The notes below the pieces were generated by a model that had not been told where the DNA came from, searched no databases, and saw only the letters and a program-made list of their open reading frames with translations. From Pseudovirgaria hyperparasitica (Eukaryota; Ascomycota; Dothideomycetes; Acrospermales; Acrospermaceae), in assembly GCF_010093815.1 (NCBI RefSeq), contig NW_022985565.1, positions 789,841 through 853,840 of the forward strand: a stretch of DNA of 64,000 nucleotides, given 5' to 3'. Shown here piece by piece: positions 36,882 through 61,860 of this stretch. Each line of letters starts with the position of its first letter. The stretch's first letter is position 1. Position numbers and translations under genes: made by a program.

Positions 36882-38929
36882 GGTCACGAAGTCTAGGCTG
36901 TGACTAGATTACGTACATATGTCCGAGACAAGATGTGGAAATGGATTCAACGTGTCAGAGGTCAAATCAGACGATCGAAGTGAAAGTTGTGATGATGCGA
37001 ACTACGTACGAGCGGGGATAAGAAGCTTATCGCCACGTGCAGCGGCCTCCGAAAGCCGCCTGAAAAGCAATCGCCAACGCAAGTTTGATTTCACCACCAT
37101 CAGAACATCCGTTTGACCTCGTGCTCGCTATGTATCCTGTCGTTCATAACAGCACTGGGATCAAGACCAGTTCGGAATCATCATCTCTGGTGACACAGTC
37201 AATACCATGGATGCATGGACATCCGCCAAGCCAGGCAGACGTTCGTCGTCAACATTGTGCATACTGCTGCGTACGGACTCATTGATGAGATGGACTACAG
37301 GCGAGAACGTGATCGATGCTTACCTTACATAAAGCATCTAGAACCAAGAAACTGTGTATTCCTGTCGGAAGGTGCAGATCCTCTGAAACTATATAGCAAC
37401 ATAGTAAAAGTGTGATTTCATGTCATTGGGCGTTGAGCTACGGTATGTCAGAGACAAACTGGGTTTGTTTAGACTTGCTTGATTTAGAGATAATACCTTT
37501 GATTCGGCTCGGTCCAACCGAATTTCAGGAAGTAACTAACGGACGATATATTTAGGGCGGAGTTGAAAGAAAGGATCTACTCTCTCTCATACATACGCTT
37601 CTAACAGCTCATTTCAGAGAGTGTAGCTCTGCAGTTGACGCAATTCACCCTCCAGCAAGGCACCCACCGCATCCATATGCTCAATTTGCTGTCGACTAAG
37701 TTGTCCCGAATGTGTAAGGGAAGACTGACAACACTCGGGCGGAAGACGGTACCTAGTCAACTCAGTTCACATCACACCCGACCTGCATGAGCTCCCGCCA
37801 ATACGGTCGTGGAAGTTCTAAAGTAGTAACCGGAGTTTGGTGTAGGTAGGCAATCGTCGTCTATCACAGACAACGATCTTGTTCGGCCCGTCAGTGCCGC
37901 TGATGGACTTCATCGCAACATGATACCATAAGCCAGTGTCTAGCATCTACAGTCCGGAAATCCACATTCGTGATGAGCTTGCACGCGCAAACGTAGGGGT
38001 ACAAAAGAGGCTGCTACGTTGCCGGTATTCTTGCGTGCCCTAATGAGCGTGAAGAGCATTGCGAACTAGATCCCATGGTGCTTTATGGATATATATGCCT
38101 AGCTTGGAATGAAAATTACCATCATAGTGGACTCGTCCCGATCCTCATACAGGTACTGTAGGTGGCAGATCTGCCGAGCCGAGGCTCGTCCATCTGGGCG
38201 CAGGGAGGCGCAAAGCCATGAAAAGCAAGAATGCAGGTGCGTCTGCCCCTCAACAAACTGCCTGTTGTGCCCCTTGTTCCTGCCCCTTTTATTGGAATCT
38301 TGAGGTGGAATGTGGAAGCTGCTACTGTAGTGCCAGAAAAGTTCTCAGGATGGAAAGTCCCACCAGAAACAGAAACCGTCACCCACCGGGATCGACACAG
38401 CCACGTTTCAGACTTTTCAATTCTGACAGTCCCACTAGTACTAAGTTGGATTAGTGGCTATCACTCCAATGATGTCACTGTCACTTGTCACTCGCCGCCA
38501 TTAATTACTACTTACTAATCGTTGGATGGCCATGAATGGCTTCTTCACTATTCTGGCCATCTCTTCATGGCTATGCTCTGGAAATACTACAAGATACAGT
38601 ATACAATGTTCCAACTGAGCTATCGGCTTACCTCTTAGGCCTCAGCTCCACGTCCGACTGGTTTCAGGAAATGATTATAGGGGGGCGCTTCGTACCCACA
38701 GGTTCGCCACGATGTCACTGTCGCCCTCGGCACGGTCATCGACGGCGCCAATTTTATTTTGCTGCCATGTATGAGTAGGTATTATTAGGCGTTAGATGAC
38801 CGCACTCTTTTACTATTTTCTCTTTCTCCCTCTTGCTTTCTCTATGTTTTCGATCCCCATACAAGCCTTCATGCCGCTCTTCTCTGTTTGTCTGCTTTGA
38901 CGCTTTCGCTCTCTCTCACAACGAAAACA
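36882..38929. other. 2-kb intergenic region without recognised genes
   Basis: Divergent space between the DUF1776 gene and the DUF3176-like gene. Short open frames (for example 36919-37415 and 38109-38778) have no domain motif, no consistent splice joins and overlapping rivals on both strands. CT-rich sequence from about 38805 to 38920 is probably the promoter and leader of the next gene. Confidence 0.5.
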
Positions 38930-40893
38930 ATGGACACCGACTCCAAATATTACCTCTCGACTCGTCCCAGTGAGGCCTCGTTACGCCCAAGTGACGCCTC
39001 GATGCGTACGATTAAGAGTATGGACCAATTGATTGAGGGCGACCCTCTGAACAACAACCGACACGCGGATGGCCAGAACTCTCGTGGTCCCCAGCGCCAG
39101 CCATGGCAACCCGGTATTTGGCATCGACTTCCATGGGTCCCTTTCACTTCCCTCATCGGAAGCACGCTCTGTACGTGACCACTCAGCAACTGATTCATCC
39201 CTGTCCTCTCTCGGTATGAGACTTACGAGCTTCAAAGGCGCGATTGGAGGTATCATCGTACTGATCACCAGCGACCGAAAAAGCACTTCAGCATGGGACG
39301 AAAAGCTTCATTTGCAACCCGCTGTGTATCTAGCTATTCTTTCGGTCCTTGCCAATATTTTTCTCGTGTTCGCGCTCGCCAAAGGGTTGGTCATAACTTT
39401 TTGGACTGCCGCACTGGACGGCTGCACTGTAGGTCAACACTTGTTCAGCCACTGAACTTAGCCCGTATTAACGTTGACAGCTCGCTGATCTTCATTACAT
39501 CTGGGACTCTGGCACTTCATTCTTTGGTGCTATCCAAGGTGTGTCCCACAAGAAGGCCGTTATAGTTTCGATCGCTTGCATCTTCACCGTTATTTCCGTT
39601 GGTCGAGGACCACTCAATCAACGAGCGACCAATATTTAGTCGAATCATGTGGTTTATTCTAATGGCACCACTGTTGTCAATATCGCACAGGAGCTCCCTA
39701 ATACCTTTGGGGGGTATCCAGTCCTATCTAGGGCTGCCGTTCGACAGACCGCACGACTGACGCCAAATCTAACCCAGGTTTTGCAGGAGTATTCGCAGCG
39801 GCAAACAATAGAGCTCACCCATTCTGGTTGCGGCCAACAATGCGATGCCACCATCAAGGGCTTTGGCTTTCGAGTCAACTGCAGCGAGCAGGTTGAGTAT
39901 GAAGATGTCGTAAAAGTTGGTACCTACCAGACCCTGTTCGCGTCCTGGGCTTCTCTTAATTGGACTTCTAACGACTTTTACAACCCGGTGCCTTCGTTCA
40001 TCACACTGAACGCAAGGTATCGAGTCGATGATGTCCCTGTCGAAACGAATGCGACTACCCATGCTGCCAAAGTGTCCTTCAAGCGTCACTCCTGCGACCT
40101 TCACGGGGGCGTCACCGCGTATCAGCTCAATCTGACTGCCCACTCCGTCAACTTCAAATACCCCGACTGGCGTTCTGACGCCTTCGAAAGAGAAGTCGAG
40201 CTTCTAGGACCGACCAATCAGCCAACTGGTGGGCCCAACGTTATCGGCGGCTTCCAGAAGGCCATAGACACCCTGTTCAACTCGACAGCTATCTACTTCC
40301 TTGGTGGTGCTGTTTCGTCGACTGACTTGACAGGAAATCTGGCCAACCAGTATGTCAAGGACAATGGTAGGCCCTATGACCCACTGTTCACTTTTAACGA
40401 TCCAATGGAAGAAATGTTGATTGCTGTCCGCGAACTTTCATTGCGTGCGTCCATAGCAGCTGCAAACCAAGCCTGGTCCCATGCGCAAGGAAACAACACG
40501 GCGATGACTTTGGCCCAAAACACTTACCAACAGAACGTGACATACCATGGGTATTACTTCGACGACATATACGTTACGGACCGGGTATACTTGGCCGTCT
40601 CTGCACTAGTCTCTCTTTTAGGTATAGTTGCTGTTGCCGCGACATTCTGGGGGTACTGGAATCTTGGCCGCAATGTATCGCTGTCGCCCTTGGAGATCGC
40701 GAATGCGTTTGACGCTGATGTTCTAAGCCACCTTGGCGACAATGCTGAAAGTGCGACATTGGCGAAGTATGTCAAAGGTGACTACGTTCGCTATGGCGAA
40801 AAGCATATGCCACTACCCGAAGGACGCATGACTAGATTGCGGTTTGTACGAGGCCCGGAGGCAAACCGTCCGTATAGGAACATGTACTACTAG
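38930..40893 (+). CDS. DUF3176-like membrane protein, with an in-frame TAG
   Basis: The N-terminal exons fit well: 38930-39170, 39238-39428 and from 39481 onward. They place AIGGIIVLITSD and LQPAVYLAILSVLANIFLVF, then DLHYIWDSGTSFFGAIQG and VIVSIACIFTVISVGRGPLN, in one frame, as in DUF3176-type fungal membrane proteins. The frame then meets a TAG at 39637-39639 just after GPLNQRATNI and stays open in the same frame beyond it (SNHVVYSNGTTVVNIAQELP) to the stop at 40893. The distal part has a sequon-rich domain, a last helix (VYLAVSALVSLLGIVAVAAT) and the family-like tail NVSLSPLEIANAFDADVL. Either the TAG is a recent nonsense change or sequencing error, or a 42-bp intron (39598-39639, GTTGGT...TTTAG) removes it at the cost of conserved residues. 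Function unknown. Confidence 0.7.
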
Positions 40894-40952
40894 CGATAAC
40901 GTCGAATTACGGTGTACCCTTGGATCCTCTTTCTTTTTCGAACCCGATCTCA

Positions 40953-42664
40953 TTATCGCAGTATATGCTTCCTCACTGTCAGCATGCTTCGAGGCCACCA
41001 GCTTTCCTTCGAACAATGGTTTGAGCATTGAAGGTCCACGATGGACAAGAACCTCTCAAGCTCCCATTCCCCGAGGTTTCCAATCCACCAGACACCATCC
41101 AGAAGAGTCACCAATACAAGCCAGTAGGCGAAGATTTCTGCAGCCAGTTGTTCGACTGGACACCATCGCCCATAATGCGATCCAGCAGGTTGTATGTTGA
41201 GGTGTAAGGAGTTCACTTCTTTTGGCACCGTTGTTACGTGCTGGACAAAGGTAATGAAATTAGTCGGTACTAGATTCAGAAAGGACATGATGGTTCTACG
41301 AAGAAGCTTCGATGGCTCAGCAGATGTTACTCGTGCCAGGTATGTCCTCAGCCATGGCGAGCCATTGGTTGGAAGCGTATTGTTGCGAAAGATGTGAGAA
41401 TTCGGCGACATGTGTCCGGGTGGAGAATGATCTTCACTTGAAAACATTGCCGACGCAACCTTCTGCAAGACCTCCATAGCCGTTACGCAATCATCGATTC
41501 GAAGACGATTGGAAGGTGATGACTCGTATGTGTGGTCGCCATCTAATAGCATGTCAAGCTTTTGCGATTCCACACGAGTTCGGAGTTTCTCGAATGCACA
41601 TGAATACGTGCCGGCGATGATTGGCAGGACAAGTCGACTTGTTTCCTTTGTTGGTCCGCTTTCTGGACACAAAACCACACATTCATGCCCAGCTGTTCGT
41701 TCGTATCCAGGCTTATCCTCGCTACAATCCCACGATGGATACCCATCATGCACATACTCCGGACTCGATAGCACCCCTACAAAAGCCAAATGCGCAGTCC
41801 TCACCAACATCATCCAGTCCCCCTGACCGGGCTGTACCCGAGAATCTGGCTCTGTTTTCCCTTCTATCGTCATCATCGCCAGCCGTATCCGCAGACTTTG
41901 ATCGGCTAAACCATACATAACCATGAGCGCCGCATTTGCCAGCACAATATCATAACACCCTGGCTCGAGAGCTGCTACTTGCATCTCGCGCAGTGCGATC
42001 TGGTAGTGCTGGCCTGCAAGTTCTAGAGTGTGAACAATCCTGTTCATGATAGCTTGTGTGACTGATTTGCCTTGGGCGAGCTGAAAGCATCTTGAAACAC
42101 CGGAAAATGCAAGGACAGAGGCCATGAGCGGGCGGCTACGCAGTGCAAGGTTGGGCACGCCGACTTGCAGTACATACAGTTCATCTTGATCGAATGCGAC
42201 AAGGCGTCCGGTTCTGGTTATGTAATCTCCGAAAAGCACAAGTTCAGTCGCTCCAAAGAAGCCAAAACTCTCTGCAAGCGGTGTAGGTGTGTCGATTCGC
42301 CCAAATGATTGCGGTTTTGTAGCATATTCTTTCAATATCGATAGTTCGCGGGTACTGGATCGTGTTGATATGCCATCAAGTACTTGACGTTTTAGTCTCA
42401 CAAGACTCTTCTGGGAGCTTTTGGCTTGAGGATAGCAACATGTATATCCGTATGCTACACAGCGGGAACATGATGGTTTTATTTCGTCACACTGTATTCA
42501 TTTTTAGCCATCTGACCAGATACCGCTTACGACAATGCAATGGATCGACTGTTGTTTCGATGGCTTACCTTTTTTCTCTGCTGCTTACATCGCAAACATC
42601 CATTCCTGGATTTTCCATGAGGTCTGCGAAACTTGAACTCAGATGTTATCGACATCATTGACAT
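40953..42664 (-). CDS. Zn2Cys6 (Gal4-type) fungal transcription factor
   Basis: Two exons, 42664-42569 and 42491-40953, with a 77-bp GT-AG intron, give 544 residues. The intron falls inside the zinc cluster. Joined, the cluster reads GCLRCKQQRKKCDEIKPSCS and then RCVAYGYTCC, with Cys at residues 23, 26, 33, 40, 43 and 50, in the spacing of binuclear Zn2Cys6 DNA-binding domains. A short basic linker follows (QAKSSQKSLVRLKRQ), then a long helical effector region of the Fungal_trans_2 kind (PLMASVLAFSGVSRCFQLAQ, then MEVLQKVASAMF). The first half of the cluster cannot be found from the large exon alone. Target genes are unknown; neighbours that might be regulated are the membrane protein, the cupin or the fusion enzyme. 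The stop lies 59 bp from that of the converging DUF3176-like gene. Confidence 0.88.
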
Positions 42665-44116
42665 GGCGCGAGCAGTAATTAGCGTAAGGAATGAGATGTC
42701 TGTCTATGGTCGGACTTTGATTCTAGAAGGGAGGGCTCATTAGGATTGATATTATACGCGTGATGGATCTATCCGAGAACCGGTGGCTCAGTCTGGTACC
42801 GCGCGATCCGGCAAACAGTCGAGCCCCGCTCTGGGCACTCCCGTGTGCTCAGCCATATTGCGGCTGAATGCATCGGCTCGGACAGGGTCTCACCGTAAAT
42901 CTCCTGGCTTATAACAGAATCTCCTTCCGGACTTGCTTACAATTCTGATTATCTGCATCTTTGCCCTTCCTTGCTTGCATCAATCACACTGGCGGTCGGA
43001 ATTCTCTGACATACTTTGTACCGCTCCTCCAAGTTGGGTGTTCCGCAAAATCCAACTCATCATGCACGAGGATGCTTAGCAATAAGATCGAGGACTTTTT
43101 ACACACGAGGGGTGTCTTTGGATGGAGAGTGGATACAGCTCCGAACAGAGTAGAATTCGAGGTCTTGGTGACTTTCGAATCCTAGACCAGATATATCATA
43201 TTAGTAAATGTGCCCAGAAACAAAGGATTTGAGCTTCCGATCTTGTGCCAGCAGAAATGATCCCGAAGGTAGATAAAATAAAGGGTATGAGGTGGTTGAT
43301 GACTTGATTATTGTCAGTATCTTGGACTTCCAGTCCAGAGCAAGACAGTGATGACGGACAACACACAATACAAATGGAATGGCGGCCCGGATACTGAGCA
43401 TGGGAGGTCTTTTAATCAATGAGGCTTCCTTCCATCGGAAGTTGACATGCGGATCTTCGTTTCTTTCGGATCAGTACGCCTGTAGATGTTGATGGGACAT
43501 GGTTTCTTGGCTTGTGTGAAAATGACTCCCCGCATTGAAGGACACCAGACAATTACAATTACATGTACTAAATAGCAAAGTGTGAAGCTAGAGAGCTCCA
43601 AAAGCTATGCCGTGTATGCAGGACAACCAACAGACACCTGTGGGGTGGAATGGATGGAGTGGAAATATTGAACGGGCCACTCCGGGACCAACTCAGCCGC
43701 GGTCCAACCACAATAATAATTTGGCATGCTAAGTTGTAAGCATTTCAGCCCCGTTGGCTTGGGCTGACAGGGAACATTCGTCGATTTGTCACGTAGCCAC
43801 TAAGCTGCTAAGCCTACCCCAAGTGCCAGCAAAATAAAAGTCAGGTGCGTTTGCGTATGCTGACCTCGTGCGTATAACGCCTATACGCTTCATAAGTGAG
43901 CAAGAGCACTGCTAGCCTTACGAGACGGAAAGACGATCATTCCTTGTAGAGCGAAATGCCTTGGAACAATTTGCAGTCGTAAACGCGGCAGTGTATATAT
44001 TCGAGATATAAAGATGTTGAGATGGCAGGCAAAAAAAGTGTCAACTCACTTACTCGCAACATCAGACTCCAAATCAACACTATCAATTTGCAATCAAGAT
44101 TATCTTCAGAAACAAA
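42665..44116. other. Intergenic, transcription factor / cupin
   Basis: About 1.45 kb with no recognised gene. Short frames at 42961-43601 have no motif. A tRNA-like A-box match near 42780 was examined and rejected. The final 100 bp before the cupin ATG are A-rich with CAATC-type sequences. Confidence 0.5.
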
Positions 44117-44946
44117 ATGATTTCCAAGATTCCTCCTCATGTCTTCCTTGCCATCATGGCTTTGTCTCCTGCCATACACGCTGCACCTCGTCCAGTCACT
44201 AGAGAATCTCCTTCTGGTCTTAGTTTGACGCAGCAACTTACTCTGGCAGACACGTACGTCACAAATGATCGATGGATATCACAGCCTTGACAAATTCATG
44301 TAGTGCTGCCGACCGATATGCCCTCCTGCCGAATGACTCTGACTTCGTATACGACTTCAATACTGCCAGCCCGCAGCTGCCCAATCGCAAGAATTTCCCA
44401 GCGCTCGTTGGCACCGGAGTCAGCATGGCTACGGCATCTTTTCCAGGTATGTTCTCAATCGCCCTCACCCGAACTCATGATCACGACGGGAACAACTAAC
44501 GTCATTTATGAGTAGCCTGCGTTGTAGCCCCAGTCCATATCCACCCCCGAGCCACTGAGCTGTTCCTCGTCACCTCCGGTACAATTCAGACCACCCTGAT
44601 CCCCGAATTCGGCGCTGGTCCTCTACCGTCAACATCAAATACTGCGAACCCAAATACCCGCATCATATCCAACACTTTGACCGCAGGCCAGATGACTGTT
44701 TTCCCTCAGGGTGGCTTCCACCTGCAGATCAATCCAACGTGTGAGAATGCGACTGCGGCGGCGGCATTCTCGAGCGATGACGAAGGGGTCATCGCAATCG
44801 TACCTAGTTTAGTTTCTCTGAATGAAGGGTTACTACAGGATGTGTTTGGTCAGAGTCTCGGTGCGGAGGAGATCGGTCGGGTCAGAGAGGCGGCGAAGCA
44901 GGGGCTGGCGCTCATGGAGGAGTGTAAGAAGAGCTGTGGTCTTTGA
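44117..44946 (+). CDS. Secreted germin/spherulin-type cupin
   Basis: Exons 44117-44253, 44304-44446 and 44516-44946 join to 236 residues. A signal peptide (MISKIPPHVFLAIMALSPAI) begins the protein, ending near AIHAA. Both germin boxes are complete. Box 1 reads HIHPRATELFLVTSG, with metal ligands His101, His103 and Glu108. Box 2 reads GQMTVFPQGGFHLQIN, with the fourth ligand His162 and Asn166. Plant germins bind manganese and can be oxalate oxidases or superoxide dismutases; slime-mould spherulins and fungal relatives are secreted, often stress- or host-related, and of uncertain activity. Introns are 50 and 69 bp. The gene sits between a lone Zn2Cys6 regulator and the fusion enzyme at the edge of the AT-rich block. 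Metal binding is well supported; the reaction is not. Confidence 0.88.
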
Positions 44947-45965
44947 GAACGATGTGTCACTTCTCTGGCACACGAGACGTATCGTCAGCGTGTACTAGAG
45001 AATACATCGAGAAAGGCGAGTTTTGACTTCAGTTTCATGCGTACCAACTAGATACATTCGTTACTTCAGCTTAGGAAGTTTCAATAGAAAAAAGTGCACA
45101 ATATCCCAGAATACTCAGGATAACACGTAGTAGTTTCTGTTAATCAAATGTTAGTAAGTTGTTGTAAGGTCAAAACCAAGCCAAGGAATATTTCAGTCTA
45201 TCGTCGCTAAGATTCATTGAGATAGCGTGCTATAAATGGCACTGATGGAATAAAGGGGTGAACGATCAACTCCGTGTTTGACTAGTTCCGATTTACTGAG
45301 TACAAAAGTGAGTGGATAGAATCGGTGATCAATAAACGAATGGATAATTATCTACGTTTGCTATTATTGCATAATACCTGCCGTTTAAGGTACCTTTAAG
45401 GGGCATTTCAGCTTGATGTTTAACCAGGAGCCACCATTGACAAACAGGGGTATTGCAATGGAATCATTCAAAGATCATGCCAAAATCCACTGGAAGCACA
45501 AGAGCGGATGACTCTATCCTGATAGCTCTAGCTAATTATAGACGGTTACACGACGTCTTAATGTGCACTTCCGTAGGACTTTTACTGCTCTACAATTCCC
45601 GGAGCAGGTGAGATGCAAAGAAGATACGACTAGTGATACAGGTGACTCATTCCGGACATGGTTTGATTGTATATGTGACGCCAAGATATTGAATTTATTG
45701 CTATGCGTCTCAAACCTTGCTTGTTTCTGCATGTATATTAGGAGCCGTGCGCAAATATCATGGGACCCCTGAGTCCTCTTCACAATCGATTTGCTAGCCA
45801 CAATCTGCAATCAAGAGAGAACATTGCCATGCGAGGTAGCTCGCAGACCGTGGTATATAATCTTGTCTTCCATTTTTCTGCACTGGAACCGCCATCGAAC
45901 TTACACAGACTATAACCATCGCCGAGCACCCCTAACTTTCACTGTGAACATTCGTCAGTAACAAC
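44947..45965. other. Intergenic, cupin / fusion enzyme
   Basis: About 1.02 kb, moderately AT-rich but not of the TpA-rich kind seen after 49.4 kb. An open frame pair at 45532-45810 on both strands has no support. It contains the promoter of the downstream gene. Confidence 0.5.
45854..45860 (+). promoter_or_regulatory. TATA-like box (TATATAA) before the fusion gene
   Basis: TATATAA lies 106 bp upstream of the ATG at 45966, with C/T-rich sequence between, a usual distance for fungal genes. The call rests on position and sequence only. Confidence 0.45.
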
Positions 45966-48900
45966 ATGACCACACTCGAAGATGTCAAGAAACATCTTCG
46001 TCTAGAGGCCGATGCGTACATGCCATTCAATCGACGACCTCTGACAGACGAAGAATACGGCAATGGTTTTGCCATCATACGCAACGGATCGGGTGCGTTG
46101 ATCTACGAAAACTTCATTGTTCCTCAACTCTCACGTGTTACATCTTATCTTCTTAAATTTCAGACAAGCCTTACTTGCCTTGAAGTCGGTCCAGGACCAA
46201 GAAGTGTTCTTGGTGCACTACCTCTTGATGTTCGTCGAAGCATCACCAAGTTCGATGTCTTCGAGCCGAATGTCTTATTCGCATTGGAGTTACAAGAGTG
46301 GCTTGAACCTACCACAGGAATTGATCCTCCGTTTCCATCATTATGCGACAAGTCTACTATTCATGTAGAAAGATTCGGGATAGACTCGCGCCCATCCATA
46401 GCGAACTCCACACCCCAGTACAACCTGATATTGTTCTGTCAAAGTCTATACGGACTATCTCCGAAGCACGAGGTCGTTCGTCAAGCTCTTAGTATGGCCA
46501 CCAAGGCTGGGATCGTGGTTGTGGTTCATCGAGGCACTTCGCTGGATCTCGGTAGCCTTGTGTGCCACGACAACGTGTTCGATACAACGGGGCAAGTTCA
46601 GGTTGAAGAAAGTGATGAAGCTCTGGATCGCTTCTCTGCATTCGTGGCAGGTTTCAAGCCCAGTGAAGTGGATACAGATAAGAGTATCCGGCCCAAGTGG
46701 CGCGCGGTATGCCGTGAGTACGGAAAGCATGAGATGAGCAAGCCCACTCGTATATCCTTCTCTTGCCCTACCATGATGGTCACGTTCAATCATGGCGCGA
46801 CTGCGCTGACGGAACTTATAGACAAAGTTCCCATAGCCGAGCCTGGAAGGAGAATCAAGAATTCCGAAGCACGACTGAATCATCCCGCTGCGATATTAAG
46901 ACCAAAGGATCATGTTCAAGTTCAAGAGTGCGTAAGATGGGCACTTAAAAACAAAGTAGGCCTTAGTGTCATGAGCGGAAGCCACAGTGGGCACTGCCAA
47001 TGGTCCAATGTGGTAGCAATCGATATGGAGGCATTCGACCAGATTCATATCATCAAGAATCAAAGGTCAGACATAGAGTCTCTGGTGGTTGCTGGCACCG
47101 GCTGCAAGGGCGGAGATATTGTCAAACGAGCAATGGCAGAACGCCTGAGTATTCCCTTGGGATCTCGTCCGAGTGTCGGTGCAGGACTATGGCTACAAGG
47201 TGGCATCGGTCATCTTGGTAGGCAGTATGGCCTTACGTGTGACTCCATCATTGGAGTTGTCCTTGTTGGTGTCGAGTCTGGTCAAATATTTTACATTGGG
47301 AATGTGCCAGCTCAATACAGACCAGCGGGTGCCACCCGTCCAGAATTCGAACTTGACTTGCTCTGGGCAATCAAGGGAGCTGGAACCAATTTTGGCATTG
47401 TCACCCACGTCATATTCAAAGCTGTTCCAGCTCTCGTTCACTCTGTTCAGCACTACGAGCTACGACTTTCCACATCAGACGAGGTCTGTTTGGAACTTGG
47501 AAATTTTCATCGGCTGCTCGCTAGCAAGGCTCCTCGTGAAGAGTCTGTCGATGCCTACCTATATACTTACAAAGGTCAGCAGATACTAGCGTGGTCGGTC
47601 ATTAAAACCTCCACCACGAAGCTCCGCTTTGCAGGCTTAGTACCCATGAAGGAGAGCACAACGGCCCACCACTCTAGTATTGTTGATGATAATGGCCTTT
47701 TTGATGAAGAATACCACATCTCAAGCATGCCGGGTGACCATGGGAGTGGCAAGACGTCGTCTTTCAAACGATGTGTCTTTCTCAAGAGCATAGAAACAGC
47801 AGAAGTTCGTGAGAACCTTTCCAGAGCTACATCTTCTGCCCCTTCGGAGTCTTGCTATGTCCATCTACTACATGGTGGAGGAGCCATGGCTGATGTCTTA
47901 GAGAGTTCAACTGCTTTCGGCTGCCGCGACTGGGAATACGCCTGCGTGATTACCGGCGTCTGGAAGCGAGACAAGGATGGCACACCTATTTCGAGACGTA
48001 CCGTGGGATGGGTGTATGACACCGTGAACAGTTTCCTACCGCTATGCAGTGGTATATATGGTGCGGACCTAGGGCCAGATCCACGGGACCTCCCTCTCGC
48101 AGCCAAAGCATTCGGGTCCAACCGACCTCGCCTTGCTCGACTGAAGGACACACTTGATCCTTATAATGTATTAGCATATGCATGCCCCCTACCACCAATC
48201 ACTCAAGGACAGAAACTCATTGTTCTTGTGAGCGGAGATACGTGCGCTGGCAAGGATTATTGTGCTAAGATATGGGCCGACTCTATCAATGCATGCATGC
48301 CCAAAGCTAACTACGCCCAAGTGATCAGTATCAGTAACCAAGCAAAGAAAGACTATGCGGCCGCTACACCTGGATGTGATTTAGACCAGCTCCTCTATGA
48401 TCGCGCCTACAAAGAGGAGCACCGTGCGGCCCTAACATTGTTCTGGCAGCACCAGATGGCGCTGAATCCACAGCTTCCTGAGGAGCACTTCCTCGATACA
48501 GTGGCCGGGGCTGCAGCTGCAGATGTCTTATTCATCACTGGCATCCGGGACGATGCTCCTGTGGCAACTTTATCCTATCTAGTCCCAGCATGCCGAGTCG
48601 TCGAAGTTCGCGTTACATCCAGTAGAAATGTACGGGAGGTCCGTTCTAATGGCAGAGACAAGCTCGAATCAATGGCTCTCAAGCATCGTCCTTGTCTCAA
48701 TTTCGAGAACAATGCAAATGGGCCCGAACTAGCCAAAGGATTTGCGACACGTTATCTATTCCCATACCTCCACGAAGATCTCCGGAGCCTGGCTGAGTTG
48801 GTAAACAAAGTACGCAACTTTCCTACACCCGGCACAGACTTTTGTCACATTCTTGGAATTGTACAACGACCCGGAGGTCTGAGCCTCTGCACTTCACTCC

Positions 48901-49358
48901 TACAGGCCCACTTCCATGGCTCTTGGTCAGATATCGACGCCATCGTATCTTGTGAAGCTGGTGGGTTCATCTTTGCATCTGCCTTGGCAATTCAAGTCAA
49001 GAAGCCTCTCATCTTGATCCGTCGAGCTGGAAAGCTTCCGCGTCCAACGGTTTCAGTACTAAAGCCTCAATCATACATATCAATTGTAGGTCAGACTGCC
49101 AAAGAACCTGAGAGGCTTGAGATGGATCGTGATGCTCTGCCAAGAGGGGCCTCCGTAGCTATTGTGGATGACGTACTATCCACTGGAAGGACAATGTGTG
49201 CAGTGTTAGAGCTGTTGGAGCAGACTGGGGTCAGCGCCGAGAAGATTAGGATTCTTACGGTGGCAGAATTTCCAGTTCATCGTGGAAGACAGCTAATACA
49301 AAGAGGCGGATATGGGAGGAGCTTAGTCCAAAGTCTCCTAGTCTTTGGTAATAAATAG
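45966..49358 (+). CDS. Four-module fusion: methyltransferase-like, FAD oxidoreductase, P-loop kinase, phosphoribosyltransferase
   Basis: One uninterrupted frame of 1130 residues; the start follows ACAAC and the frame has no upstream ATG rival. Module 1 (about 1-290) resembles class I AdoMet methyltransferases: LEVGPGPRSVLG near residue 72, then KFDVFEPN and YNLILFCQSLYGL. Module 2 (about 295-745) is a PCMH/berberine-bridge-type FAD oxidoreductase: HPAAILRPKDHVQVQECVRW, SGSHSGHCQW near 337, GGIGHLGRQYGLTCDSIIGV near 413, WAIKGAGTNFGIVTHV near 468, and a C-terminal substrate-domain end (LKDTLDPYNVL). Module 3 (about 748-940) resembles animal-type phosphomevalonate kinase: P-loop SGDTCAGKDYCAK near 757 and DVLFITGIRDDAP. 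Module 4 (about 944-1130) is adenine-phosphoribosyltransferase-like: FPTPGTDFCHILGIVQRPGG, EAGGFIFASALAIQVKKPLI, and the PRPP loop VAIVDDVLSTGRTM near 1065. There is no signal peptide, so it is probably cytosolic. I know no described protein with this order; the reaction is unknown. Confidence 0.85.
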   Translation: MTTLEDVKKHLRLEADAYMPFNRRPLTDEEYGNGFAIIRNGSGALIYENFIVPQLSRVTSYLLKFQTSLTCLEVGPGPRSVLGALPLDVRRSITKFDVFEPNVLFALELQEWLEPTTGIDPPFPSLCDKSTIHVERFGIDSRPSIANSTPQYNLILFCQSLYGLSPKHEVVRQALSMATKAGIVVVVHRGTSLDLGSLVCHDNVFDTTGQVQVEESDEALDRFSAFVAGFKPSEVDTDKSIRPKWRAVCREYGKHEMSKPTRISFSCPTMMVTFNHGATALTELIDKVPIAEPGRRIKNSEARLNHPAAILRPKDHVQVQECVRWALKNKVGLSVMSGSHSGHCQWSNVVAIDMEAFDQIHIIKNQRSDIESLVVAGTGCKGGDIVKRAMAERLSIPLGSRPSVGAGLWLQGGIGHLGRQYGLTCDSIIGVVLVGVESGQIFYIGNVPAQYRPAGATRPEFELDLLWAIKGAGTNFGIVTHVIFKAVPALVHSVQHYELRLSTSDEVCLELGNFHRLLASKAPREESVDAYLYTYKGQQILAWSVIKTSTTKLRFAGLVPMKESTTAHHSSIVDDNGLFDEEYHISSMPGDHGSGKTSSFKRCVFLKSIETAEVRENLSRATSSAPSESCYVHLLHGGGAMADVLESSTAFGCRDWEYACVITGVWKRDKDGTPISRRTVGWVYDTVNSFLPLCSGIYGADLGPDPRDLPLAAKAFGSNRPRLARLKDTLDPYNVLAYACPLPPITQGQKLIVLVSGDTCAGKDYCAKIWADSINACMPKANYAQVISISNQAKKDYAAATPGCDLDQLLYDRAYKEEHRAALTLFWQHQMALNPQLPEEHFLDTVAGAAAADVLFITGIRDDAPVATLSYLVPACRVVEVRVTSSRNVREVRSNGRDKLESMALKHRPCLNFENNANGPELAKGFATRYLFPYLHEDLRSLAELVNKVRNFPTPGTDFCHILGIVQRPGGLSLCTSLLQAHFHGSWSDIDAIVSCEAGGFIFASALAIQVKKPLILIRRAGKLPRPTVSVLKPQSYISIVGQTAKEPERLEMDRDALPRGASVAIVDDVLSTGRTMCAVLELLEQTGVSAEKIRILTVAEFPVHRGRQLIQRGGYGRSLVQSLLVFGNK

Positions 49359-49421
49359 CTGTAGTTCGAAGCAGACTTCCTATCAAACAATTAGTTCAAT
49401 TCTATGCCTATATTTGAAGTT

Positions 49422-49441
49422 AAACTAAAGTACTTTAGTTT
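49422..49441. repeat. 20-bp perfect palindrome at the block edge
   Basis: AAACTAAAGTACTTTAGTTT reads the same on both strands. Related AACTAAAG/CTTTAGTT pieces recur in the next 100 bp, so this may be the edge of a degraded repeat. Confidence 0.8.
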
Positions 49442-50321
49442 ACTCTACTATATATTTAAACTAAACTATTAGTTATAGTAGTAGAATTATAGTTAACTAA
49501 GTTAAACTAAAGTTTAGTAGGTAGTTGAAGAATCTCGTAAATATAGTTAAAATATTATATATTTAAGGCTATATAGTCGATTTTTATACGTCTTAGTATA
49601 TACCTAGGTAGATTTAAGTACTAAATTATCTAAATTTAATAAGAAACTAACTAGTATACTTTTACGTAAACTACTAGTTATAGATAAGGCTATAACGCTA
49701 CTAACTCTTTAAATCTTATAGATAGTCGATTAATAGTAGACTTATCTTACTTCGTTATAGTATAATTATATCTTCTACCTTACTAAATATATATTTATTA
49801 TTATAGCTTAAAGCTAGTATAGAGAGTATATTAATTATAAGTTTATAAAGGTAAGAAAACTTATTCTTTCTATCTAGCTACTACTAGATTAGACTATCTA
49901 TAATATTAGACTTACTATTAAGGCGATAATAGATACTTAGCTTATCCTTCTCTTATCTTTTAGGGCTCTTTATCTTTATTTTATCTAAGTATTACTCTAC
50001 TTATAATAGCTAAGATAGAGATTATATAACTAGAAGAGATAGAGATAGTAGTAAGAAGAGTAATAGAGATTAGTATAATAATAATAATAATAATATTATA
50101 TAACTAGGTAGAGTAGTTTACTCTATAGGCGTATACCTTCTCTAGTCTAAGCTATTATATAAGAAGAAACCTTTATATAAGGAAAAACTCCCTTTTCTCT
50201 ATAATTATATCTTGTGAAACCTTCGTATTATCTTAAGTATATAGCCGTTAGGAATATCTATAGACCTATAACCTATAGTACTATTATTTTACCCTTAGGT
50301 AGCACGTATAGAGTACGGGGG

Positions 50322-50352
50322 TTATTAGTTAAGAGTTACCCTTAACTAATAA
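50322..50352. repeat. 31-bp near-palindrome, left copy
   Basis: An inverted repeat with arms TTATTAGTTAAG / CTTAACTAATAA. It matches a second copy at 63171-63201 in 29 of 31 bases; the two differences are transitions. Confidence 0.85.
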
Positions 50353-53300
50353 TCGGGGTTCTCCCGGGGTTCTTCCGGCGTATACCGGGGTCTATCTAGT
50401 ATATACCTAGTTACTTCTAGTATATATATCTAGGTCTATTAGTATTAGGGAAGAGGGAGATATATAAGTATCTACTAGGCGATCTCCTTAGGGTACTTAT
50501 TAAGCTACTATATAATATTAGAGGTCCTTATTATATAGATAAGCGATTATCTCTATATATAGAGGTCCGGGTATATCGCGAGATAGTACTATATTATATC
50601 TCTCCGGCCGTATACTTTATACTATAGAGACGCGTCTAGAACGCCCCTCTAGTATAGATAGTATAGAAGTTCTATAGCTTCTATTTAGGCTTAGAGGAGG
50701 ATACATACTTAGGCTTTTATAAGCCCCTTATATATCTATCTACTTAGCTCCTTCTATAGTCCCTAAATCTATTCTAGATATCTATTCTATTAGGATACCT
50801 AATAGGTCTAGAGGACTTTCTTCTATTTATCCTAGGTCTATAACCGTATAGCCTATATAAGCTCTTAAGGGTTCTACCGGTCTAGGGAGGCGTCTGGGTT
50901 ATCCCCGATCTCTTATATAATTTAGTTTAAGTCTATCTCTATTAGGCTCTTATACTATAGTCGATTCTAGTCTATATATAGTAGTACTTAATAGTAGATA
51001 CTAACTTATATATATAGCACGGTAAAGGTATATTTAGCGTATCCTACGCGTTCCTATACTTATTATTTAGTAAAGTATATTACCCTCTATATCTAGTAGA
51101 AGTTATATATACTTATTACGTTTATCTCGCGCCGTAGTAGTACTATATTAGTAGCCTTATATACGCTAGAAATAAGATAGAGTATATAGTTCTATATAGA
51201 CTTAAGCTTTATTCGCCTAGCCTATATAAGGGCTATATACTAGTACTCGTATCTATACGTGAAGGCGGGTTATACTATAGAGATATATAGTTAGCGTACC
51301 TTATCCTAGGCGGTTTCCTATATAGAGGCCGTAATCTAGTATATAGCGGCTTCTACCTTAAGGGCCCTAGATACTATATATATAATCTATAGGCCCTATT
51401 TAAGTTTATTATTAATTATAACGCTAAGTACGTATATACTCTATATCGGCGGTTTAGTAAAAGCATCTATTCTAGGATATTACTCTCCTTCCTTAGTAGC
51501 CTATTTCCTATAGTAGTTAATAAAGTATATAAGTTAGTATTTCTTAGAGGCAAACTTTACTCTATAGCGCTTTATCTACTAGATATATCTCTTATAGTCT
51601 TATTCGAGGTGTTTATATATTAAACTAGTATTATTATTAATAGCTAGGAGGTATATATCGTCGGCGTATCCTACTACCTCTATATATTATATTCTCTATA
51701 GAAGGTCTACGGTAAAGAAGAGAAAGAGAATTAGGGAGATAGTACTTCCTTATAGAATACTATATATTATCTTCTTATATTTACTTTAATATCTAGAGAT
51801 ATATATCTAGGTAATTCTTTTAGTAAGAAAGGACTATATAAACCTTATAATCTATTCGGGTATATATCTCTTCTATAGATTATAGATAAGTCTTATATAG
51901 TTTATCTTATTAAATGCGCCGGCTATATTAAGGGAGAGTAATGTTACTACGCGTCTCTATTTCTATATAGTCTAGATAACTTTAAGGATATATTAGATAG
52001 TAGTAATTAGGGAGCTCCTAGTTTTCACCTTCTAATTTACTAGAAGAAGGTTATATTCTTATACTATGGTACTTATCTTCTTCGTAATCGTGGCCTTAAG
52101 TATTTTACTAAGATAGAAGAGAAGGGTAATTAGTCTCTATCCTTTTAGGGAGTTAGGGTTCTTCCCTAGTTTTAGAAGTATAATAGTATAGACAGCCCGG
52201 AAGCTTTAGAGGTGGTATCTATTCTTAGTATATATCTAGAAGATAAGGCTAATAAGTAGTAGGGTCACCTATATAGTATATTTAAGGTATCTATTTAGTA
52301 TTCTATCTAGTCTAGACACTTTATCGTTCGAGAGTACTCTAATAGTATTAAGAATCTTCTCTTCCGTAATCTCTACGGGGATATTAACCGCGTCTAGATA
52401 TATATTATTATTAATATCTAATAGATCTACTAGCTCTAGGGGGGGAAATATAACTTCTTAGAGAATCTCTATCTTTTCGGGGCTCGTAGTATATATTCTC
52501 CCCTAGTATATTAGGGGAGGTATTAGTAGTAGTAGCGTCTACACGTCCGCGCTCTTAGCCTACTTTACTATATACTATAGCCCTATAGTCTATTATATAT
52601 ATTTATTAGTAATTATATACTAGTATTTATATTATTTATTATAGAGGGTCTTATCTTAAGATTGGATTATCTCTTTCTATTCCTCCTATGCCTTAGTTAT
52701 CTAGATATAGTATACGCGTGTATATAGTCTCCGGGCTACCCTTCTACTTTTATATATTTAAGGTATACCCCTTACGTCTAGAGGCTTATACGTTTAGTAT
52801 AGTACGTATTTATCTCTTAAGTTTTAGAAGGCTTAAAGAAGAACTTACACGGCTCTATCTATAGCTAGGCTATTAGAGACGTTAACTATAGAGGGGTCTA
52901 GAATCGCCGATCCTAGGTTCTTCCTATACTTCTCCTAGTTAGTATCTTTCTATAGCTATCTCCCCTATTATTCGTTAGGTATAGATATATCTATCGCGGT
53001 CTCTATATATTTATAATTAGAGTCTATTTACGTCTTACTAGGGCGGTAGTATTATACTCTATAGCTTATATATTCTATAGCGAAGGTAAGGTTAAGTATA
53101 GATCCCTCCTTATCTTCCTTATATTTCCTCTATATAATTTATCTAACCGGCGTAAGAAGGTATAGAAGGTTATAGTACCTTATATATAGCTCTCTTACTC
53201 TAAGCTCTTCCCTAATAACTATTAGGCCTCCCTACTATCTATAGTAGAGGTTAAAGTTATCTAGAAGGATATATTATTCTAGTTCCGTAATACTCTCTAG

Positions 53301-53812
53301 TATAGTATCTAGTATAAGTAATTCTCTCTAGTTATAGATATTATAGATATAGAGGGGCCCTATATCTATCTAGAGGTATAGTATTATCTAGAGATTATCT
53401 TATTCTATATAGAACTATTCTAAGAGCGGGATAGATTTATATATATAGAAGAGAACTCTCCTATCTAGGCCCGGGGGGTAGATAGTATAGTATTCTAGGT
53501 GTGTCGTTAGTTTATTAGTTTAGTAGTATTTATAAGGTTCCTAAATAGCTATTATTATAGCGTCTATCTCTTCTAGAAGCATAGCCTAGTTTTCTTATTT
53601 ATAGTATATATTCGCCTATATAATAATAAGTATATCTTAACTCCTTATTAGGTGCTAGGAAATACTTAAGCCTATATACTAGTAGCGTTAAGGCGCGACT
53701 ATCTCTACGCGGTAGCTACCTTAAGAATACCCTAGGGTTATTCTATCTTCCTTTATATAGTATACTATTACACGTTAGCCTCTTCTTCTTATAGATTAGT
53801 TAGTATAGTTAT
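50353..53812 (-). mobile_element. Degraded LINE (non-LTR retrotransposon), 3' part with reverse transcriptase
   Basis: On the minus strand, between about 52.3 and 51.3 kb, the conceptual reading has the order of a LINE reverse transcriptase: a GAF-(D/N)-K-(V/I)-N block, a GS-x-(I/L)-SLILFLFF-like block, and the catalytic YADD at 51668-51657 inside EVVGYADDIY. The closest fit is the fungal Tad1-type clade, by eye only. Many stops interrupt it and the copy is dead; C-to-T and G-to-A transitions explain the pattern. The 5' part probably continues to the right of the LTR element that interrupts it. Ends are uncertain; the left limit is set by the 31-bp palindrome. Confidence 0.65.
53808..53812. 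repeat. Target-site duplication GTTAT, left
   Basis: GTTAT directly precedes the left LTR and recurs at 61856-61860 directly after the right LTR, as expected for a 5-bp staggered integrase cut. Confidence 0.8.
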
Positions 53813-54050
53813 TGTAAAGAGTAAAGACGTGGGATAGTAGTCTAACAGTTCATAGAGAGATATAGGAATGTATTTATAGAGTAATCTTACTCTCATACGA
53901 GGTTGATTCCTAACGAGTAGGAATCGGTTTATACGGTCCACTTATATAGTAACCTCGCTTAACTTAGCTAACTTAACCCAGCTCTGGCCACTACGTGGCT
54001 GTATAGATTAGAATAGTCTATATAGGTCCGTTATAGTTCCCGTCCTAATA
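53813..54050 (-). repeat. LTR, left copy (3' LTR of the element)
   Basis: 238 bp, starting TGTAAAGAG on the plus strand. It aligns without gaps to 61618-61855, with differences that are all C/T or G/A. Confidence 0.88.
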
Positions 54051-54051
54051 A

Positions 54052-56471
54052 TATCCTTCTTCTTTTTATACTTCGCCCCGAAGTACTTAAGTATATATAA
54101 TCCTAAGTCTCTATAATCTATCGTGTATCTATATATCCGTAACTAAGTTCCTATAACGTTATAACTATTCTTAATATAGGTGAACTCGAGATTCTAGTTT
54201 ACTTTTATTAGTTTATATACGCGCTTATCCCTTGCTTCGTGGCTACTACCTAGGACACGTAATCGCTACTTTAGTCGAGCATATATTTAGCTTCGCTTAC
54301 CTTTAATTTTATTCTCTAGTATATCTACCTCGCTCTTAAGGTAAGTCGTTAATTTATATACTATCTTCCCTAGTTTAGGTTTAGAAGGGTCTATAGTGGT
54401 CCATTCTTATTAGAACCGGTCCTATGTAACCTATTCGCGTTATTACGGTTACTAATTTAGCTTCGTCAATCGCCGTTAAGGGTGGACGAATATTCCTTTC
54501 TTAGATCTCTAGCTAACGTGTATATATAGATGTCTAATACTAGTCCTATCTCTAAGCCTACCTCCTCCTCTCGTAAGACTCGCTCTAAAGGTATCGCCTC
54601 CTCCCCGGCCACGCCGGCTAAGAAGCCCACCTATCGCGGTAGTATAAAGGCGCGCTCTAAGTCGGAGAAGAGAGTAGCTAGGGCTACTACTACTACTACC
54701 TCTACTACTAATATGGCCACTAGTCGCTCTAATCTAGGTAATCCTAGTACTAAACTTATGGATAAAGTGGTCGTAGGTTCTCCTCTCGCTCTAAAGCGCA
54801 CGCCGCCTACTCTACCTCCTCTAGAGGATAAAGAAGATCTTATTATAGATGATAATCGCGAGCCCTCGCGCTCACCCACGCCGCCGCCTCGCCGCTTTTC
54901 CTTCCGGTCTAACATGGACCGATTTAGTCGCTCTAGGTCCTTTTAGGACCTTAATATTCGCTCTAAACCCCAGCCTACTAATAATAAGGCCTAGGTCGCC
55001 GAGGATACTAAACGTGGTCACGGTTTATACTATAGGAAAACGGCGAACTACGGTTCGATATACTATAAGTGTATTAAGGGCTATACGGCCGGCTCTAAAT
55101 ATCTCTTTCGCTCTAACTCTAGCATTAGCTACTACTCTACTAACCGCGACGGGCCTATACGCCCTATCTTTACTCTACCTACCCGCTACCGCCGCTATAC
55201 CGTGACTAGTAAGACTTATCTATAGGTAAGTATAATGGGCTATCTTAATCTAGTATGATCTAAAGTGGTCCGCGCTAATACATTCTTAGGTTCCTATGCG
55301 TATATAAGATATATATAACGACCTTCGCGTCCGCGAGACCCTCGGGGGTCCTTATAGCCGCCTATCTACTATATAGAGGGAGTTTAGGGAGCGCTATAAG
55401 CTCTTCCTAGAGGTTATTAAAGTATAAGTTACGAGCACGTTAATTATTTTTAACACCCGTTGATTTTTCTAGCCGCCGCGAGATCCCTAGCGCCTAGGCT
55501 ACCTATTCTAGGGAGTCTATCCTAGCTATAGAGGCCGTAGAGAGGATTCGCTCTATCCCCCCCTATCCGTCTCGCGCTACTAACGGATCTCGTAAGAGGT
55601 CTACTATTTCTCCCTCTAAGTCGCCTTATAAGAGGGTATATATTCCCTTCTAGATTATTCTAGATCGTGTTAGCTAACTTTAGACCTAGTCGCTACGCTC
55701 TAGCGCTTAAGGCTCTTCTCTCTAGGCTCTAACGGATCGGGTTATTACTCTAGAGGCTAAGGTCGTCGTTCTCCGCCGCTATGTCGTGTAGTTAGAGAGG
55801 ACTATACTAGAGATTAGGACGGATAATAAGATAGAGAAGTAGCTCTATGGTTCTGGCTCTATATGTTAGCTCTATGCCTAGCTCTATATATTCTAGATCT
55901 ACTATAGGTGGTGCGCGCCGGCTCTGTTTACCTAGCTTTTATCTATTTTAGTCCTTTTTGGACCGTTTAGATACCCGTCGGCCAGTTTCTAGTAATTTAA
56001 TTCTTAACTTAATGATATTATATGTGCGCTCGCTTAGCTTATGACTATCGGTTTCTACATTCTAATTTTCCTTGAGTTACCTAAGTGTGGGCACCGTATA
56101 TAAATTGGTTTATCTCTATAAATTCCATTAGAGTACCCGAACTAGTGGCCTAGTAGTTATTAGTTTAGATACTCTAACCTTTTATATTTCGTGTTAAGAG
56201 TTTAATTCTATGGTGGGGTACCTTTTTTTAGGTTCTTAGTCCCATGTTTTTCTCGTGTATAATGGTCCATATTAGTCTATTCTAGACTCTTCTATGTTAT
56301 TCTATTGTAGTGTGTCGCGTCGCGTTCCTAAAATGGTTATTTACGCTTTCTTCGCGTCTAGTAACCGTGCGACGCTTGAATTATGGGGCTACCATATAGA
56401 GTTTTCCTAGTACGCGTCTAGATTTCCTGGTTTAGCACTTCGTTCTCTACGGTATCCTTCTTCTTTTTATA
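54052..56471. repeat. Segment bounded by a 19-bp direct repeat inside the LTR element
   Basis: TATCCTTCTTCTTTTTATA occurs at 54052-54070, the position of the polypurine tract, and again at 56453-56471, near the end of the pol region. The 2.4 kb between them differs in character: an open frame on the opposite strand and more surviving TpG/CpA, most clearly from about 55900 to 56450. It may be a later insertion or an extra non-coding or antisense region of this element family. Confidence 0.5.
54530..54946 (+). other. Ser/Thr/Pro/Arg-rich open frame within the LTR element
   Basis: A 138-codon frame on the strand opposite to the element's pol genes. The product would be basic and low-complexity (SRKTRSKGIASS, RSPTPPPRRFSF) with no recognised domain. 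As part of the fossil element it is not called as a host gene. Confidence 0.4.
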
Positions 56472-59400
56472 ACGACCGCGACGTCGCTATGCTTATATTA
56501 ATAATACGCTATTCTATATCTTTTACTTATACGCAGCCATTATAGAACTTAAGATATATACCGCTAGTTCCTAGGTGTCCTCGTCCTTAGTATAGTCCTT
56601 CTAACGGATTCTATATTTCTAAACACCGTCTTTATCAATCCTATGTTTAATAATATAGTCCACTTCGAACACGTCTAGTCCATCTTAGGGTATAATAGAG
56701 TATAACTATACGTTCGTACGGCCATACACGTTAGGTCGAAATCTTTCGAGTAGTAAGACGTGGAACACGTTATAGATTCTTATATCGCTTCCTAAGTTAA
56801 GCTCGTAGACTCTTATACTAATACGACGTTTAATTCGGAAGGGACCAGCCATTTTATAATCGAGCTTCTTATTTACTCGCGATGTTCATATATTACGGAC
56901 GTTAAGAAGGACCTCGTCGCCCTCCTCGTACGTCTAATCCTTAGCTAACCTATTATAGTACTTCGTATACGAGTCGTTTACTTATTAGATTATAGCGCGA
57001 TAGTTACGTACGGTTTTAAAGATTTTAATCGCTAATTCCTAAGCGTGGACGTTCACGTCTATTATTCGATTAAATTAGACCGTCTAAGGCTTAAAACCTA
57101 TCCTTAGACTGCGTCCGAGGTTCGCCTAGAAAGGTATAATACCTGTCGTACTATAACGACTATTATTATATACGAACTCTACTATACTTAGTAGAGAGGC
57201 CTAGTCGTTCTACTTAAAATTATAGAATACACGTAGGTAGGCCTCGAGCGTCTAGTTCTATCGCTCTATCTAGCTATCCGTCTAAGGATAAAATACTATA
57301 GACATATTTCTATTTATACTTACCATTTCGTAGAATAACGTCTAGAATTTAGACGTGAAGGTACTTCCTCGGTCCATAACAATCCTTTTTAGTATACCAT
57401 GGACCTTAATAATCTCGTTCTAGAACACCTACGCTAGTTCTTTAGATGTAATCGTCTTCTACACTAGGATATACCTAGATATCTTTATAAGTCTATCTAT
57501 AATAATAAGAATAGAATTATAACTCATCCTAAGTATCTCGCTTAGAGGTAAGTCAACTATAAAGTCTATAGTAATATCTTCCCACATAAAGAGGGGGGCT
57601 AAAAGAGGCTGTAAATTCCTATATAGCTTATACCTAGGGGCCTTCGTTCTTTGATAAATCGGATAAGTAGCTATCTATTCTTTAATATACTTGGGTATAT
57701 CTTTCTAAAAATAGTACTAACGAATTAAGCTTAGGGTACGTATATATCTAAAGTATCCTACTAGGTTAGCGTTATAGTATCGGCTAACTACGTTAAATCG
57801 CGCGTTACCCGTCGGCATATAGTACTTTCTATCATAGTAAAGTAAGCCGTCCATAAAGGTCTACTTATAGTCTACTTTAGTCCGTAATAACCTATCTTAC
57901 TATATTTTACGTAACTTTAAAACTATCGGGTCTATCTTCTATAGATCCACGATTAACTAGGCGAGGTTAATTAGATATTTACGCCGGGTATTATCGCCCT
58001 TCCCGACAGCGCTAATAAACGGTCTACTAGGGACTTCGGTACCGCGTCTTTAGTTACCGGCTTCGGTCTTAGAGATTCGATTACCGGTATTAACGTTAGC
58101 ATCTCGCTAATCGCCTAATAACTTAAAATCTAACCTTATCCTTAAGAGTTAGGCCTATAGCTACTCTAGGACCCTATAGCCACTATAATCCTAGGCGCCT
58201 TCTTTATAGTTAGGTCTTCTTAACATCCTATTAGCTAGGTTTATACTTCTAGGTCGATAGTAGATTATAAAGTAAAAGTTCGTAAGCTACTTAGCCCATT
58301 AGACCTATTAATAGTTTAAAACTATCGTGCTTATAAACCCCTTTAAGTTATAGTAATTAGTTAGTAACTCGACGTTATATATGGTACCTTTAAGATAATA
58401 TCGCCACTATTTAAACGACTCTACTATTACTAGTAGCTCTTAGTTATAGATAGTATATCTAGTCTTAACATCGACTATTTTGCGTAAGAAGAACGTAACT
58501 AGATACTATTAGACCTTTTTAGACTTAGTTAGTCTAGACTAGAAGAGAATGCCTAAGATTATAAATTCTAACGCGTTAGTTTCGACGCGGATAGGTTTAG
58601 TTAGGTCGAAGTATACTAGTAATAGGGTAGTTATAAATGCCTCTTTGATTTTCTCGAAGGAGGCCCTTTCGCCTTCCGATAATTCTATAGGCTACGATTT
58701 AATATTATACTATTTCTATCTACCGCGGACCGTAATAGACGAATCTATGGTAGTAGTACGCGTGTTAAGTAGTACTACTAGCCGGGAGAAATGCTTAACG
58801 AATTTTCGGTAGTAATTAGCGAATCCGATAAAGACACGTATATCTCGAACCGATCTTAGTTTAGACTAGTCCACGATAGTAGCGACCCTATCCCTTTCTA
58901 TGGTTATACCTTAATTAGTAATAACGAAGCTAAGGAAGTTAACGTGGTCCTAGTAGAACTCGTATTTAGATAGCTTAATATATAGCTTATGTTTTTCTAG
59001 CCTATCTAGGACTACGCGTACGTGCTAGATATGTTCTTCTTTGTTATTAGAGAAGATAAGGATGTTATCGAGGTATACGATGCACGTTATATCGAGTAGG
59101 CCTACTAGCGCGTTATTAATGTACGCTTAGAAGGTTCCTAGCGCGTTAGTTAGTCTAAAAGGGACTACTATGTACTCGAAGTGTCTATAACGGGTCCTAA
59201 ACGCCGTTTTCTACTTATCGCCCTTCTTAATACGTAGGCGGTAGTAGGCATCGCGTAGATTAAGCTTAGTAAAGATCTTCGTGCGCCCTAGTCTATTAAT
59301 AGACTCGGAGATAAGAGGTAGTAGGTAACGATTCTTTCGCGTGATATTATTTAGGCTATAGTAGTTAACACATAGACGGAGACTCCTATCCTTCTTCTTT

Positions 59401-61855: not shown

Positions 61856-61860
61856 GTTAT
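61856..61860. repeat. Target-site duplication GTTAT, right
   Basis: The partner of the GTTAT at 53808-53812 on the far side of the LTR element. Confidence 0.8.

Follow-up and report, generated by a model that had tools for sequence, protein, structure and literature searches.

A single gene in the 64,000-nucleotide stretch of the Pseudovirgaria hyperparasitica genome analysed here (the window) contains four enzyme-like modules fused within one frame: a methyltransferase-like module, a flavin adenine dinucleotide (FAD)-linked oxidase, a P-loop kinase and a phosphoribosyltransferase resembling adenine phosphoribosyltransferase (APRT). The fusion is solid as a structural claim. An earlier note on this DNA had reported the four-module frame, which is confirmed. 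Its interpretation is partly supported: the families and the genomic setting stand, and the labels phosphomevalonate kinase (PMVK)-like and APRT-like describe families, not activities. The gene and its modules are the following.

45966–49358, + strand: whole gene, one 1130-codon frame (open frame; shuffle control)
45966–46838, + strand: module 1, residues 1–291, S-adenosylmethionine (AdoMet) methyltransferase-like, motif LEVGPGPRS at residues 72–80 (PF13489)
46839–48206, + strand: module 2, residues 292–747, FAD-linked oxidase of the PCMH/berberine bridge enzyme (BBE) type (PF01565, PDB matches)
48207–48782, + strand: module 3, residues 748–939, P-loop kinase of the PF04275 family (SGDTCAGKD 756–764; K816-E817..R820; R861) (PF04275, alignments)
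48783–49355, + strand: module 4, residues 940–1130, APRT-like phosphoribosyltransferase, phosphoribosyl pyrophosphate (PRPP) loop 1064–1077 intact, base side altered (PF00156)

The open reading frame

The frame begins with ATG and spans exactly positions 45966–49358 of the forward strand, 1130 codons without interruption, within a stop-free run of 1136 codons. Across 200 shuffles of positions 35001–49358 that preserved dinucleotides, the longest frame had 264 codons (mean 167), so the fusion frame is far beyond chance. The 1130-residue frame claimed earlier is therefore real, and the claimed motif positions also match: AdoMet-like motif at residues 72–80, P-loop at 756–764 and PRPP loop at 1064–1077. 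Judging from the open frame, the gene probably has a single exon.

An assembly or annotation artefact, in which two or more adjacent genes are read as one, is extremely unlikely. One open frame crosses all module borders, the GC content at third codon positions (GC3) is between 0.43 and 0.50 in each of the four modules, and the contig continues to telomere repeats. GC3 of the whole gene is 0.47, the same as the lowest value among 18 other gene pieces.

Module families

We have compared the modules with Pfam, using its curated cut-offs; modules were scanned individually unless the whole protein is mentioned. The order proposed in the earlier note is found. The oxidase, kinase and transferase pass their Pfam cut-offs, and the methyltransferase-like module gives a significant match below its own. 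The latter is probably a methyl-adding enzyme.

Module 2 matches PF01565 (FAD_binding_4) at residues 307–441 with 53.8 bits (cut-off 26.4), and a BBE C-terminus at residues 713–738 is slightly under its cut-off (19.9 bits vs 20.6). The best PDB match is 6-hydroxy-D-nicotine oxidase (2bvf, E 2.4e-17), and the module pairs nearly end to end with the BBE-like structures 6eo5, 9h8u and 5k8e. Within the SGSHSGH stretch, His340 lines up with a histidine of 6-hydroxy-D-nicotine oxidase (in SGGH) that we take to be the FAD carrier. At what is presumably the site of a second, cysteinyl FAD bond in bicovalent enzymes, module 2 has SRPSVG, without Cys. It shares with BBE-like oxidases, 6-hydroxy-D-nicotine oxidase and EncM the FAD-binding domain, the FAD-linking His and a C-terminal LKDTLDPYN stretch, but differs from them in its position, with a methyltransferase-like module before it and a kinase after it. 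From the end of the oxidase pairing, near residue 743, to the start of the kinase match, at 752–755, there is a linker of about 10 residues.

An oxidase of this kind might also belong to a purine or cytokinin salvage protein: it would remove a side chain at N6, after which the APRT-like module would re-ribosylate the free base and the kinase would make the diphosphate. Cytokinin dehydrogenases are FAD/PCMH oxidases, and the three modules would form a logical series. Nevertheless, the types that the oxidase matches are BBE, nicotine-oxidase and EncM, the Pfam scan of the fusion modules gave no cytokinin-dehydrogenase model, and the Glu104 and Arg67 of APRT are absent from the transferase module. 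We consider this explanation very unlikely.

Module 3 matches PF04275 (P-mevalo_kinase) at residues 755–870 with 65.7 bits (cut-off 33.8), but fails the animal PMVK equivalog model TIGR01223 by a wide margin (25.6 bits, cut-off 188.15). The label PMVK-like is thus justified as a family resemblance and not as an activity. On its own, the window kinase reaches PMVK structures only at E 0.1. A profile built from it and four Mollicutes-like PF04275 kinases has phosphomevalonate kinases as its nearest solved structures (E 4e-9), although four of the five rows in this profile are not the window protein. The Walker lysine K763 (G-K) and K816-E817..R820 (K-E-x-x-R) match the four Mollicutes-like kinases, while R861 pairs with them in one of two alignments and not in the other. 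The P-loop and K-E..R motifs are common to module 3, animal phosphomevalonate kinase and the Mollicutes-like kinases; the last are stand-alone frames of about 193–231 amino acids. The border between kinase and transferase lies somewhere between approximately residues 891 and 938.

The phosphoribosyltransferase module

Module 4 is well above the cut-off of PF00156 (Pribosyltran; residues 969–1101, 65.9 bits, cut-off 26.3), but passes none among the APRT models listed: NF002636 gives 106.1 bits (cut-off 125) and TIGR01090 95.9 bits (cut-off 185.85). Human APRT is matched with 69.6 bits, and the same fungus has a separate APRT-like frame which is about 31% identical to module 4.

The rows compared with the module are 22 APRT-like loci of prokaryotes, collected through one alignment, and the fungus's own APRT-like frame; residue numbers of human APRT are counted on the alignment to the human protein. 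The PRPP loop (DDxxxTGxT) is intact (VAIVDDVLSTGRTM, residues 1064–1077), and its DD and TG are present in 22 of the 23 rows, the remaining row (L037) having no letters there. The base side is different. Human Arg67, Glu104 and Tyr105, kept in 22 of the 23 rows, correspond to Gly999, Ile1040 and Val1041, and Asp28 (also 22 of 23) corresponds to His961. The hood region is lengthened by insertions of 4 and 5 residues. Module 4 shares with human APRT, PRK02304 and TIGR01090 the fold family, the PRPP loop and the FPTPG and GKLP stretches; it differs in being fused to a kinase, in its scores below the APRT cut-offs and in the replacement of Arg67, Glu104 and Tyr105. As with the kinase, the description APRT-like holds for the family, while the scores and the loss of these residues speak against the activity. 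Since the three residues are replaced and the PRPP loop is nevertheless intact, the acceptor is probably not adenine. Module 4 is unlikely to be an ordinary enzyme of adenine salvage.

A changed acceptor is the likely meaning of the altered base side, and its main rival is a module that senses PRPP. In this alternative the transferase would no longer be an enzyme and would tune the kinase or the oxidase, in the manner of PurR, which has a PRPP-sensing role in Bacillus subtilis. A kept PRPP loop with replaced base-side residues is what such a sensor would have, and the PDB matches of the module include PurR (1p4a and 1o57, E about 6e-6). On the other hand, the APRT enzyme models are by far the closest (106 and 96 bits, whereas PurR scores 36), and an unusual substrate would account for the changed residues as well. 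We regard the sensor as unlikely.

Proposed function

The sequence itself shows the fusion, the families and the survival, as core motifs, of the FAD-linking His, the Walker A Lys and the PRPP loop. From these we infer the coupling, substrate and product of the enzyme, and the resulting metabolic claim appears reasonable. The fusion may synthesise a small nucleotide-like molecule or process one. Its C-terminal half would attach the phosphoribose of PRPP to an acceptor, giving a 5'-monophosphate, and the adjoining kinase would then convert this monophosphate into a diphosphate. Tailoring of the acceptor would fall to the FAD oxidase and, perhaps by methylation, to the methyltransferase-like module. 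A kinase of this family next to a phosphoribosyltransferase fits, because PMVK turns mevalonate 5-phosphate into the 5-diphosphate, that is, a phosphate monoester into a diphosphate, as outlined in an excerpt of PMC4823745. The stepwise building of a nucleotide-like molecule, suggested in the earlier note, is plausible. We hold, tentatively and a little short of an even chance, that the four modules of the polypeptide all work on a single small molecule or on its precursors. A stricter version, a self-contained nucleotide-analogue synthase with a non-purine acceptor, which the protein would oxidise, methylate and, through a re-purposed APRT module, phosphoribosylate before making the diphosphate, is a good deal more speculative and rather improbable.

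Several observations weigh against a joint action of the four modules. Module 1 is below the PF13489 (Methyltransf_23) cut-off of 27 bits, with 23.0 bits (E 7.5e-5) at residues 55–188 and 19.7 bits (E 7.5e-4) when the whole protein is scanned, and it has no PDB match at E<=10, that is, no solved relative was found. In the kinase, the second Arg of what we take to be the DTRR motif of human PMVK is an Asp. Equally, the alterations at the APRT positions could point to a dead domain or to a sensing one. Codon usage does not discriminate: the gene scores 0.36, against 0.04–0.70 in 18 other gene pieces, and in a separate test the antisense frame came out ahead of the true frame (0.51 vs 0.35), so we draw nothing from it. 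Five neighbouring frames between 35.3 and 45 kb showed no transporter, phosphatase, polyketide synthase (PKS), nonribosomal peptide synthetase (NRPS), backbone or tailoring enzyme in Pfam; some frames were left unscanned and the block beyond the gene was not searched for genes. Finally, our scans of viral, prokaryotic and plasmid sequences, which reach close relatives only, found no relative with the four-module architecture.

Some of these points would also fit a looser arrangement, in which the four domains serve unrelated or only loosely linked reactions, fused for co-expression, some of them decaying. The weak methyltransferase, the adjacent scanned frames without pathway genes and the subtelomeric location, bounded by repeat-induced point mutation (RIP), are in its favor. 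A run of 3.4 kb without a stop, the short linker between oxidase and kinase and the core motifs present in three modules are against it, and we find it rather unlikely.

If modules acting in series are the correct explanation, a single gene would provide a route to an unusual nucleotide, and PF04275 together with PF00156 in one frame would be a new search probe. The nucleotide-analogue synthase, if true, would represent a class of multi-domain biosynthetic enzyme that is new and does not follow PKS, NRPS or terpene logic. Fungal genome mining targets mainly the signatures of PKS, NRPS, terpenes and ribosomally synthesized and post-translationally modified peptides (RiPPs). A single-gene fusion of kinase and phosphoribosyltransferase with its own tailoring modules would escape such searches.

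Published precedents

The earlier note knew of no described system with this order. Full-text searches aimed at the four-module architecture returned no description of it, judged on the best-ranked titles where the lists were large, and so the statement is uncontradicted in that literature. Fungal sequence collections were outside the comparison, and the fusion may already be present, unremarked, in public fungal proteomes.

Fusions of kinase and phosphoribosyltransferase, as well as recruited APRTs, do exist in nucleoside pathways, and they are the nearest printed analogues. One is the kinase-HisG protein of the cordycepin cluster, which we take to be Cns3. A figure legend describes it as an N-terminal nucleoside kinase joined to a C-terminal HisG transferase (PMC11188397). 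If so, Cns3 of the cordycepin/pentostatin cluster (PMC11188397, PMC12648386) is, like the gene in the window, a fungal fusion of this kind in accessory nucleoside metabolism. It differs in having a HisG-type transferase and a nucleoside kinase, and the legend names no oxidase or methyltransferase. The other analogue is AgmE, which an excerpt of PMC8599513 presents as an APRT-type enzyme that works in angustmycin synthesis, a separate bacterial protein which makes adenosine monophosphate (AMP) from adenine and PRPP. Both AgmE and module 4 are APRT-type, and AgmE has been recruited to a nucleoside product; in contrast to the fusion, it is stand-alone, bacterial and AMP-forming. The PDB entry 7f06, named adenine phosphopsicosyltransferase, matches module 4 at E 1.5e-9, and we infer that it is AgmE.

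Genomic setting

The window is part of contig C17 in a genome of 35.0 Mb and 59 contigs. The contig terminates 44,179 bases past the gene in 15 TTAGGG repeats, which is a chromosome end. The features around the gene are as follows.

40953–42497, - strand: Zn2Cys6-type regulator-like frame, upstream exon(s) outside it (PF00172, 19.5 bits, cut-off 21, E 0.001)
44118–44946, + strand: cupin gene, probably three exons and a signal-peptide-like start, both read by eye (PF00190)
49359–64000, no strand: RIP-type subtelomeric block (base composition, RIP index)

RIP-type composition begins at most about 150 bases after the stop codon of the fusion gene. GC is 0.23 over the first 500 bases of the block and 0.29–0.44 in later 1-kb windows. 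The composite RIP index is 1.09–1.79 across 1-kb windows from position 49001, compared with -0.60 for the fusion coding sequence. RIP targets repeats, so a single-copy gene should escape it, and its escape tells us little about selection. The accessory setting proposed earlier, subtelomeric and bounded by RIP, is borne out by this composition and by the telomere repeats. The case for the proposed metabolite locus is weak, with only a regulator-like gene and a cupin between 40.9 kb and the gene. The cupin is well supported (55.1 bits for PF00190 on 44512–44943), while the Zn2Cys6 regulator is below threshold. A sulfate permease is found at 27.9–29.4 kb, some 17 kb upstream.

The fusion gene appears to be single-copy. 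Counting matches as lower bounds, PF04275 has one in the 35-Mb genome at E<=0.1, the fusion gene itself, and the methyltransferase module has one at E<=10, also itself. A search with the whole protein pointed to 10 further places, of which 9 match the oxidase part and 1 matches the transferase part. An ERG8-type phosphomevalonate kinase is matched on contig C2 in two pieces (239 and 65 bits); both are under the whole-protein cut-off of 377 bits, as expected for separate exons. Since the genome has this kinase and its own APRT-like frame, neither housekeeping job needs the fusion gene.

Two side observations concern this chromosome region and the window. A non-RIP island in RIP subtelomere (L013) contains two frames of at least 120 amino acids, at 3212–4255 and 7037–7498 of the locus; one is protein-kinase-like (PF00069, 28.6 bits, cut-off 31.7) and the other has no Pfam match. 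Positions 20001–21000 of the window have a GC skew of 0.635, the maximum among 64 one-kb windows, a strong strand asymmetry.

Relatives in other collections

Our pattern scans reach close relatives only, and the results refer to viral contigs, bacterial and archaeal genomes and plasmids. Among viral contigs, the whole protein gave 5 pattern matches, the oxidase 1 and the kinase-transferase half 7, none of them confirmed. The same half gave 28 pattern matches in bacterial and archaeal genomes, with none confirmed, and 92 plasmid records, none covering 80% of the query. In plasmids, the kinase alone gave 2 records (best E 0.3), as did the methyltransferase alone (best E 6).

PF04275 matches above the cut-off are found in 27 of 392 cases in the phylum of genome G002. 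None is found in 4 single genomes or among 396 in the phylum of G001, and none among 398 in the phylum of G003, where no control genome scored either, so that absence is not shown there. An in-frame TGA is present in 25 of the 27 matches. The family also occurs as stand-alone kinases in small TGA-reading genomes, which are probably Mollicutes. To our knowledge, most mycoplasmas have no mevalonate pathway, so the family name may be misleading. A weak match in the phylum of G001 (L040) was rejected, as by eye it is in an ATPase-like frame.

The four PF04275 proteins that we have read out (L045, L046, L048 and L049) are stand-alone and have a DxRFPNE motif. Two other loci in the phylum of G002, L051 (G1122:C72) and L052 (G1005:C59), have a PF04275-like kinase fused in one frame to a protein which by eye resembles alanyl-tRNA synthetase. 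Their kinases score 27.4 and 27.7 bits (cut-off 33.8), in frames of 1096 and 923 codons.

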